From Geothermobacter ehrlichii (lineage in GTDB: Bacteria; Desulfobacterota; Desulfuromonadia; Desulfuromonadales; Geothermobacteraceae): a stretch of DNA of 64,000 nucleotides. Of the stretch, positions 4,133 through 44,090 are shown in pieces; position 1 is the first letter of the stretch; the number at the start of each line of letters is the position of its first letter. Below the pieces are notes generated by a model. That model did not search any database, was not told the origin of the DNA, and saw only the letters and a program-made list of their open reading frames with translations. The translations under genes were made by a program, and so were the position numbers. The stretch is taken from assembly GCF_008124615.1 (NCBI RefSeq), contig NZ_VNIB01000005.1, forward strand, positions 1 to 64,000, read 5' to 3'.

Positions 4133-6142
<2,010 letters not shown>

Positions 6143-6169
6143 GGGGGCGGCGACAGACATCGAAACATC

Positions 6170-6205
6170 CGATAGCCGGGGCGCGGTCCCCGGCTATCGT
6201 CTTTT
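6170..6205 (+). terminator. intrinsic terminator after hppA
   Basis: A perfect 12-bp stem (CGATAGCCGGGG pairing with CCCCGGCTATCG) with a 6-nt loop, followed by TCTTTT. It separates hppA from ychF, whose ATG is at 6221. Confidence 0.9.
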
Positions 6206-6220
6206 GCACAGGATTAATAC

Positions 6221-7315
6221 ATGGGTTTCAAGTGCGGTATTGTCGGTCTGCCCAATGTCGGCAAGTCGACCATCTTCAATGCGCTGACCTCGGCTGGCGC
6301 CGAGTCGGCCAACTATCCCTTCTGCACCATCGAGCCGAATGTGGGCGTGGTGGCTGTCCCCGACCCGCGGCTGCAGGCCCTTGCCGAGATCGTCCGGCCG
6401 CAGCAGGTACTGCCGACCACGATCGAGTTCGTCGACATCGCCGGCCTGGTCCGCGGAGCGAGCAAGGGAGAGGGACTCGGCAACCAGTTTCTCGGTCATA
6501 TCCGGCAGGTTGACGCCGTGGCCCACGTCGTTCGCTGTTTCGAGGACGAGAACGTCGTCCATGTCGACGGCGCCGTCGATCCCTTGCGCGATGTCGAGGT
6601 CATCCAGACCGAGCTCAATCTCGCCGACCTGGCGACGGTCGAAAAGCGGATCGCCCGCATCGACAAGCAGGCCCGCAGTGGCGACAAGGAGATGCAGCGC
6701 GAACTCGAGGTGCTGCGCCGGGTCGAGGCGGTGCTCAACGACGGACGGCCGGCCCGCGCCGCCGGCCTCGAACCGGAGGATGCGGCGCGACTTAAGGAGC
6801 TCTGTCTCATTACCGCCAAGCCGGTCCTCTATGTGGCCAACGTCGGCGAGGACGATCTTCCCGATGGCAATGTGCTCGTGGAGAAGCTGCGCAGTCAGGC
6901 ACGGCAGGAGAACGCCGAGGTGGTGGTCATCTGCGGCAGTATCGAGGCAGAGATCGCCGAGCTCGACGGCACCGAGAAGGAGGAGTTTCTGCGCGATCTC
7001 GGGCTGGAGTCGTCCGGTCTCGATCGGATGATTCAGGCCGGTTACCGGCTGCTGGGGTTGCTGACCTATTTTACCGCCGGCGTCAAGGAGGTGCGGGCCT
7101 GGACTGTCCCCGCCGGCTGCAAGGCGCCGCAGGCCGCCGGAGTCATCCACACCGATTTCGAAAAGGGGTTCATCCGCGCCGAGGTGATTGCCTATGACGA
7201 TTTCATCCGCGCCGGCGGCGAGGCCGGCGCCCGGGAAAAGGGCCTGATGCGCCTCGAAGGCAAGGATTATGTGGTCGCTGACGGCGATGTCATGCATTTC
7301 AGGTTCAACGTCTGA
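6221..7315 (+). CDS. ychF: redox-regulated ATPase/GTPase of the Obg family
   Basis: YchF is a ribosome-associated P-loop NTPase that prefers ATP. The 364-aa length is normal. GLPNVGKST (residues about 8-16) is the G1 loop, [17 protein letters not shown] is the switch II/G3 region, and the C-terminal third is the TGS-like domain ([20 protein letters not shown], then ending in DVMHFRFNV). It stands between the hppA terminator and the rpsF leader, so it is probably transcribed alone. Confidence 0.95.
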
Positions 7316-41843: not shown

Positions 41844-42132
41844 GGAACGGTTTTGCCGGAAAGATTGAAAGACCGGGTTTCCCCTTCGCGTGGAAGCCAC
41901 TGAATGGAGGCGGACTGTTCCGGGAAAAAGGCCATGAATGCCCGAGGCGACAGCTGAGTTTTCAAGGCCGCCGAAACAGTCTGCCGGAGTGAAGGCACCC
42001 GCATTTCCCTTGCCTCTTCGTCTCGCTCCGGCTGCGGCATAGGGGGCTTTCGTTTCGCGATTCGTGATTCTCGATTCTTGTTTCCTGAGTCCTGTTATAC
42101 TGAGAACAGAAAACGAACAGGGGAGGTGGGTC
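41844..42132. other. intergenic region with a large hairpin and GATTC-type repeats
   Basis: GGCGGACTGTT (41909-41919) and AACAGTCTGCC (41975-41985) form an 11-bp stem with one G-U pair around a 55-nt loop that is itself partly structured. At about 42056-42083 GATTC recurs at 7-bp spacing (three times), a degenerate heptamer repeat. No gene is recognised. TATACT at about 42100 could be the -10 of the amrS promoter, without a good -35. Confidence 0.45.
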
Positions 42133-43182
42133 ATGCACGAAGCGCGGTTCTGGGAACAGGGCGAAAACGGCGATGTCCGTTGTCGGCTCTGCCGGTTTCA
42201 CTGCCGCATTGCGCCGGGGCGGGTCGGACTGTGTGGCGTGCGGGAAAACCACGACGGCACCCTCTACACCCGTGTTTACGGCCGCAGCATTACCGAGGCG
42301 GTCGATCCGATCGAGAAAAAACCCCTCTATCATGTCGAACCCGGCTCCCTGAGTTTTTCCATCGCCACCGTCGGCTGCAATTTCCGCTGCCTGCACTGCC
42401 AGAATTACCAGATTTCGCAATGGCCGAGTGAGCGGGGGCAGGTCGCCGGTGAAAGGCTGACTCCCGCCGAGGTGGTGCGGCGCGCCAGGGCCGCCGGCTG
42501 CCGCAGCATCGCCTACACCTACACCGAACCGACCATTTATTACGAGTATGCTTTCGACACGGCCGTTCTCGCCCGCCGGGCCGGCCTGCGCAACATCTTC
42601 GTCAGCAACGGCTATATCGAAACCGCGCCGCTGGAGGCGATCGCCCCCTGGCTGGATGCCGCCAACATCGACCTGAAGGGCTTTCGCGACGATGTCTACC
42701 GGAAACTGACCGGGGCCTCCCTTGACGGTGTGCTGGCGACCATGCGCGACTACCGGCGGCTCGGCATCTGGCTCGAAGTGACCACTCTGATCATTCCGGG
42801 GATCAACGACGATGACGGGCAACTGAAGGGCATCGCCGGCTTCATCGCCGATGAACTCGGCCCCGAGGTTCCCTGGCATGTCACCGCCTTCTATCCGACC
42901 TACCGGCTGCTCGACGCGCCCCCGACGTCACCCGAGATTCTGTGCCGTGCCCGCCAGTTCGGCCTGGATGCCGGTCTGCGGCATGTCTATACCGGCAACG
43001 TGCATGATCCCGAAGGAGGGCATACCTACTGTGCCGGTTGCGGCCGGAAGGTTATCAAGCGGCGTGGTTTCCAGGTGGTTTCGCTGCGGCTCGACAACGG
43101 CTGCTGTCGGCAGTGCGGAAACCGCCTGGCCGGGCTTTTCAATATCGGACCGGGAGGAGAAAAGGGCACGTCATGCGCCTGA
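42133..43182 (+). CDS. amrS: AmmeMemoRadiSam-type radical SAM enzyme
   Basis: A 349-aa radical SAM protein. The [4Fe-4S] motif is VGCNFRCLHCQNYQIS (CxxxCxxC). An N-terminal cysteine-rich part (CRLCRFHCRIAPGRVGLCGVR) and a C-terminal CAGC...CRQCG set may bind a second metal site. YTYTEPTIYYEY is a family signature. Its usual partners AmmeB (AMMECR1) and MEMO are not adjacent here. Substrate unknown. ATG 42133 has GGGAGG 7 nt upstream. It overlaps the DUF3179 gene by 10 bp. Confidence 0.88.
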   Translation: MHEARFWEQGENGDVRCRLCRFHCRIAPGRVGLCGVRENHDGTLYTRVYGRSITEAVDPIEKKPLYHVEPGSLSFSIATVGCNFRCLHCQNYQISQWPSERGQVAGERLTPAEVVRRARAAGCRSIAYTYTEPTIYYEYAFDTAVLARRAGLRNIFVSNGYIETAPLEAIAPWLDAANIDLKGFRDDVYRKLTGASLDGVLATMRDYRRLGIWLEVTTLIIPGINDDDGQLKGIAGFIADELGPEVPWHVTAFYPTYRLLDAPPTSPEILCRARQFGLDAGLRHVYTGNVHDPEGGHTYCAGCGRKVIKRRGFQVVSLRLDNGCCRQCGNRLAGLFNIGPGGEKGTSCA

Positions 43183-44090
43183 TGCTGCTGGCGCTGCTGC
43201 TCTGGCCAGGCCTGGCCTTGGCGGCCTGGGACCTTTCCCGGTCGAGCATCAATACCGAGGAAATTCTTTCCGGGGGACCGCCCAGAGACGGGATTCCGGC
43301 CCTGCTGGAACCGCAATTCGCCCTCGCGGGCCAGGTTCCCTTCATGCGCCCCGACGATCTGGTTCTGGGGGTGGAACTCAACGGGGTCGCCAAGGCCTAT
43401 CCGACCCGCATCCTTTCCTGGCATGAACTGGTCAACGATCGATTCGGCGGCCTGCCGGTCCTGGTCTCCTGGTGACCGCTGGCCTATTCGGGGGTCGTGT
43501 ACTCCCGCAGGATCGGAGCCGAGGAACTGACCTTCGGGGTATCCGGTCTGCTGTACCGAAGCAATGTGCTGATGTACGACCATCAGAGCGAATCGCTCTG
43601 GTCGCAGATCCTCAGCGAGGCGGTGACCGGCCCGCGGCTGGGCAGCCGTCTGGAAGTCCTGCCTTCGACCCTGACCCGTTGGGACAAATGGCGCCGTCAG
43701 CACCCCGGGACGCTGGTTCTGACTACCGCGACCGGTTACGACCGGGACTACAGCCGGGATCCCTACGAGGATTACTACCGCCGGCGCAGCGGCCTGTTCG
43801 GTTTTCTGAGTGCCGGTCCGGGAGAAGAGGACAAGGAACTGGTGGTCGGGATCGAGCTTGAGGGAGTCAGTCGCGCTTATCCGCTTGACTGGCTCAAACG
43901 GCGGGGCCGCCTGGTCGACACGTCGGTGCCGGGAACCCTGACTCTGAACTACGATGGAGCCACGGACCAGCTGCAGGTGCGCGACCGGGATGGCCGGCCG
44001 TTGCCGCACCTGATAACCTACTGGTTCGTCTGGAAGGCTTTTCATCCCCGGACGGAACGTTTCGCCCCTCCGGCAGAACCTTCTCGCTAG
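43173..44090 (+). CDS. DUF3179 protein, predicted selenoprotein (in-frame TGA read as Sec)
   Basis: The frame from ATG 43173 to the stop at 44088-44090 would give 305 aa if the TGA at 43473-43475 (codon 101) is read through. Residues 1-18 are a signal peptide (LMLLALLLWPGLALA). On both sides of the TGA the family match is continuous: AYPTRILSWHELVND and GGLPVLVSW before, PLAYSGVVYSR and ELTFGVSGLLYRSNVLMYD after. Relatives have a Cys-Pro-Leu-Cys motif at this point; here the TGA takes the place of the first Cys and the second is Ala. A SECIS-like hairpin is at 43490-43506. The function of DUF3179 is unknown; a redox or metal role is an inference. Overlap with amrS suggests joint expression. 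Conventional gene callers would split it into 43173-43475 and 43497-44090. A sequencing error or true nonsense mutation is the alternative. Confidence 0.85.
43490..43506 (+). promoter_or_regulatory. candidate bacterial SECIS hairpin
   Basis: GGGGG (43490-43494) pairs with CTCCC (43502-43506) through one G-U pair, enclosing the 7-nt loop TCGTGTA. A loop G is about 22 nt past the UGA, within the 16-37 nt range known for SelB-bound bacterial SECIS elements, which also need a G in the apical loop. It lies inside the coding sequence, as bacterial SECIS elements do. Confidence 0.6.

Follow-up and report, generated by a model that had tools for sequence, protein, structure and literature searches.

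A DUF3179 gene with an in-frame UGA probably decoded as selenocysteine and a motif outside the listed UxxC/T type

Results

Gene layout and family assignment

We analysed a 64,000-nt stretch of DNA (the window) in which a gene of the DUF3179 family runs through an in-frame TGA (Table 1). An earlier note, made from the sequence alone, had placed the start at ATG 43173 and the TGA at codon 101 and had described the frame as open to 44090. The sequence agrees on each of these points, and the stop codon of the frame is the TAG at 44088-44090. Mechanical ORF calling returned two fragments, 43038-43475 and 43497-44090, as had been foreseen for ordinary annotation, and the read-through rescues the gene from this split.

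The read-through product scored 267.6 bits against PF11376 (curated cut-off 27) and belongs to the family. On its own, the part before the TGA matched profile positions 1-64 (E 4.5e-20); the remainder, likewise on its own, matched positions 66-227 (E 2.5e-50). These stretches of the profile adjoin, so that coverage is continuous over the TGA, and the family-like sequence that had been noticed on both sides of it was recovered for each half separately. A profile search of the genome from which the window comes (3.24 Mb, 33 contigs, 100% complete) found this DUF3179 gene only and flagged its single internal TGA.

Table 1. Coordinates of the gene, its elements and associated genes
Feature	Position	Strand	Remarks
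AmmeMemoRadiSam radical SAM gene (AmrS-type), upstream neighbour	42064..43182	+	TIGR04337 E 8.8e-112
Possible ribosome-binding site AGGAG	43155..43159	+	13 nt 5' of ATG 43173; inferred from sequence
DUF3179 CDS, predicted selenoprotein	43173..44090	+	305 aa with Sec101; PF11376 E 1.8e-79 read through
Probable signal peptide MRLMLLALLLWPGLALAA	43173..43226	+	read by eye
Duplication unit 1, with Sec101	43350..43727	+	about residues 60-185; profile-profile match to unit 2
UGA codon probably read as selenocysteine, residue 101	43473..43475	+	129 homologues: Cys 85, TGA 42
Putative SECIS hairpin CGGGGGU-CGUGU-ACUCCCG	43489..43507	+	7-bp stem; loop CGUGU 43496-43500
Duplication unit 2, shortened, without Sec/Cys site	43833..44048	+	about residues 221-292; profile-profile match
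selC (tRNA-Sec)	C15:60884-60975	-	above Rfam cut-off
selB	C15:57186-59051	-	above curated cut-off
selA	C15:59116-60483	-	above curated cut-off
selD gene 1	C4:20860-21777		one in-frame TGA; above cut-off
selD gene 2	C9:114889-115818		one in-frame TGA; above cut-off
Plasmid gene of about 200 aa	L193 4885-5487; L194 4890-5507; L195 4900-5502		adjoins DUF3179

The codon 101 column in homologues

Across 129 aligned distinct homologues, the codon 101 column held Cys or Sec in 127, Ser in one, Asp in one and Trp in none. The alignment agreed with the earlier note that the TGA takes the position of the first Cys of the family motif and that the second Cys is Ala here. The 85 Cys homologues comprised 68 CxxC, 15 CxxT, 1 CxxA and 1 CxxS motifs, and the 42 TGA homologues comprised 20 UxxA, 8 UxxS, 8 UxxT and 6 UxxC. 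Ser or Asp was seen at the column in L126 (Lewinella) and L191 (G223), and the redox residue of DUF3179 is therefore not universal.

A DUF3179 match was present in 27 of the 147 relatives searched, most with exactly one internal TGA. UPLA or UPLS was found in 20 genes extracted from the window's order, the window counted in. The other DUF3179 types of the same order (CPLT, CTLC and UPLC) were placed elsewhere in the tree. In a 23-sequence alignment 45 columns were invariant, 27 of them downstream of the TGA. Independent genomes, one of them single-contig, carry the TGA at this column too, which excludes a sequencing error of the kind that resequencing would show as TGC or TGG.

The DUF3179 gene of L164 (G400) has, in addition to the TGA of its UPLS motif, another in-frame TGA. 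This one lies in TTWKUWKK, at a column of Arg/Lys type in relatives, and reflects either an error, a mutation of recent date or an unusual second site of recoding.

The SECIS hairpin and the selenocysteine machinery

The hairpin with a 7-nt loop that had been reported downstream of the UGA is real; counting the U-A closing pair gives 7 bp and a 5-nt loop, and leaving it out gives 6 bp and a 7-nt loop. The published limits for bacterial SECIS elements are a loop of 3-9 nt, a stem of 4-16 bp, G in the first two loop positions, a distance of 16-37 nt from the UGA and an MFE of at most -7.5 (PMC13188914). A check of the region near 43473-43520 showed that the hairpin lies within all four bSECIS criteria, with a 5-nt loop, 7 bp, G at loop position 2, a loop beginning 20 nt past the UGA and a fold of -9.1 kcal/mol. 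By itself the hairpin is weak evidence, because 8.5% of the window's TGA triplets come with a stem of 7 bp or more and G at loop position 1-2. It is significant because it is conserved across genomes.

We measured this conservation on the stem of 39 TGA genes. Pairing was present in 91.2% of cells compared with at most 57.9% in slid controls, and four pairs were altered on both sides, with 14 double-changed cells. In 500 shuffles, the real values of pairing, covariation score and double-changed cell count were never reached. Cys homologues kept 3.1 of the 7 stem pairs compared with 6.1 of 7 in Sec genes (Mann-Whitney p 2e-8, with sequences that are not independent). The minimum of synonymous variation along the gene fell at codons 105-111, which correspond to the hairpin. 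RNAalifold alone gave no consensus structure at the hairpin, a null result that is outweighed by the count on the named structure, and Rfam gave no convincing match at 43489-43507.

Absence of the sel genes from the genome would have spoken against a selenoprotein, and selA, selB, selC and selD were all found. The selC, selA and selB genes form one cluster on the same strand. Both selD genes are probably selenoprotein genes themselves, as each contains an in-frame TGA. Of the 21 genomes of the order that carry the TGA and were searched, 20 gave a selA match, and the remaining one (G135) is 63% complete. Elsewhere in the phylum, G438 and G239 had selB but no selA match, and G338, which carries a divergent TGA gene of the UPLC type (L162) and is rated 100% complete, had neither selA nor selB above cut-off. 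As these three are draft genomes, gaps or misplaced contigs are the likely cause of the missing sel genes.

Protein architecture and phylogeny

The N-terminus looks by eye like a signal peptide, MRLMLLALLLWPGLALA followed by A, and the product is therefore probably exported. The two halves of DUF3179 matched each other in profile-profile comparison with a probability of 98.5%. L162 has a full-length second unit, which shares 29% identity with the first over 119 residues. On these matches DUF3179 contains an internal duplication, and its Sec/Cys site occurs in the first unit only.

The predicted structure was confident (mean pLDDT 88.6, pTM 0.87). A PDB sequence search gave no match to the DUF3179 protein, and a PDB structure search with the predicted fold gave none at E 0.001 or better, with weak WWE-like matches only. 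A predicted protein of Indivirus ILV1 (A0A1V0SD44) showed a similar predicted fold (Foldseek probability 1.0, TM 0.56/0.70) but a sequence identity of 11%.

In the tree, the window gene was placed in a supported branch of 28 rows (SH-aLRT 96), all 28 with TGA and all 28 with UPLA or UPLS. The branch keeps Sec, with no Cys form among its sampled members. The rows closest to the window gene were from two genomes of the same family, with identity up to 78%. We also considered whether Sec is tied to loss of the second Cys. The raw counts were strong, but a tree-aware count left only about 5 Sec/Cys changes, without an independent signal, and for this reason the association is not claimed. A phage search for DUF3179 relatives returned zero matches, and a plasmid search returned 27 records in which the relatives were chiefly haloarchaeal.

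Gene neighbourhood

The 3' end of the AmmeMemoRadiSam gene overlaps the DUF3179 start by 10 nt and is separate from the selenoprotein. The same gene order, with a short gap, was found in two same-family genomes, and other members of the order were without it. This neighbour was rejected as a functional hint, since an adjacency confined to the window and these two genomes carries little information on function.

A Sec relative from the 28-row branch (L052), whose genome has selA, showed a tight three-gene run of an FAD disulfide oxidoreductase, a VTT-domain (TVP38-type) protein and DUF3179. The oxidoreductase is kin to MerA and dihydrolipoyl dehydrogenase. VTT proteins also adjoin Cys-type DUF3179 in L082, L091 and L075, with ArsS and a TIGR04283 glycosyltransferase in the vicinity in L091 and an NDH-SelD fusion in L075. 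The vicinity of plasmid Cys-type DUF3179 genes held thioredoxin, GDCCVxC (seleno)protein, DsrE and azurin-type genes.

Discussion

Decoding of the UGA codon

The tests of homology, of the alignment column, of the sel genes and of the SECIS element leave Sec insertion as the sole reading that fits all of them, and we put the probability that UGA 43473 is decoded as selenocysteine at about 0.96. Sequence comparison shows that Sec and Cys exchange at the column, that the SECIS element covaries and that the Sec machinery is complete. The ribosome would reach the UGA, SelB on the hairpin would bring in Sec-tRNA(Sec), made with SelC, SelA and SelD, and translation would run on to 44090 after Sec insertion. 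The earlier reader's call from the raw sequence was right in all testable respects.

Since TGA is one base away from the Cys codon TGC and homologues have Cys at the column, the gene might be a pseudogene in which a nonsense mutation or a sequencing error broke a Cys codon. Such decay is very improbable given a TGA in 28 of 28 clade rows and in the single-contig genome, a sequence after the TGA that is under purifying selection, as its 27 invariant columns show, and a SECIS element downstream. The two mechanically called ORFs would be explained if the UGA were a true stop and the second half arose by re-initiation, for example at GTG 43497. We give this next to no credence, because the Cys homologues are single chains with both parts fused and PF11376 coverage is unbroken over the TGA; the new start codon would also fall within the hairpin, and the Sec/Cys exchange at the column would be left without a reason. 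UGA is recoded as Trp in some bacteria, and a code change or near-cognate read-through could place Trp or another ordinary residue at position 101. This is hardly credible for a column at which none of the 129 homologues has Trp, in a genome that carries selABCD, and TGA is still the main stop codon in the window, where it ends 52 of 74 long mechanical ORFs.

We infer a redox or metal role for DUF3179. If the window gene encodes a selenoprotein, Sec101 might serve metal or metalloid binding instead of redox turnover, and some relatives do lie near arsenosugar genes (ArsS, TIGR04283), an NDH-SelD fusion or azurin-type copper proteins. However, without the second Cys/Thr the motif keeps a single soft ligand, and the tightest gene run, that of L052, has a pyridine-nucleotide disulfide oxidoreductase; we regard metal binding as unlikely, though still a serious candidate. 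We favour redox chemistry at Sec101, with an external thiol as the partner. The partner is suggested by the motif without a second Cys, and the L052 operon lends weak support. The product would be exported, and its reactive nucleophile would be the Sec101 selenol, located in the first of the two homologous units. With Ala or Ser in place of the partner Cys in the clade, Sec101 would act as a redox centre with a single selenol that an outside thiol recycles, rather than as part of an intramolecular CxxC pair. We put this mechanism forward tentatively for the window protein. By extension, the Sec-only branch (28 of 28 sampled), which is without the second Cys/Thr, may possibly act as an exported one-selenol enzyme, a subtype outside UxxC/T, at slightly less than even odds.

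Relation to known DUF3179 proteins

DUF3179 is tabulated as a prokaryotic selenoprotein family with the motif UxxC/T, and the listing cites Zhang and Gladyshev 2007, the Olavius algarvensis symbiont study (PMC9312934; PMC13188914). The suspicion that a selenoprotein label already existed was thus correct, and the discovery value is limited because of this listing. The passages that we found on DUF3179 give no function for it.

The published selenoproteins (PF11376) share with the window gene the domain, Sec at the same Cys position and a SECIS element just 3', but they are listed with UxxC/T (Cys or Thr three residues past Sec), whereas the window gene has Ala and all 28 clade members have UxxA/S. 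The difference bears only on the motif subtype and leaves family membership unaffected. Cys-type DUF3179 proteins (CPLC; Nitrospira, Gammaproteobacteria and haloarchaeal plasmids) have the same domain and architecture with 40-50% identity, but Cys replaces Sec, the second Cys is nearly always present and the SECIS hairpin is missing. The UPLT selenoproteins of Desulfobacterota and the UPLC selenoproteins of Acidobacteriota have the same Sec column and an equally placed hairpin, but they lie on separate branches of the tree, and their second motif position is Thr or Cys.

The window gene is a new DUF3179 selenoprotein gene with an unlisted UPLA/UPLS motif variant, in a system that is itself already known. 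The additions are the all-Sec UPLA/UPLS subclade without second Cys/Thr and the internal duplication of DUF3179. The covarying SECIS element and the UPLA, UPLS, UPLT, UPLC and CPLC homologues are material for function tests of this uncharacterised family.

Two arrangements were observed in other genomes. Haloarchaeal plasmids have, directly 3' of DUF3179 or overlapping it, a gene of about 200 aa that lacks any Pfam match and whose product is possibly a dedicated DUF3179 partner. In L103 (Bacterium HR10), two DUF3179 genes adjoin at about 4200-7040, and each has TGA at the Sec column, one in a UPVC and the other in a UPLC motif.
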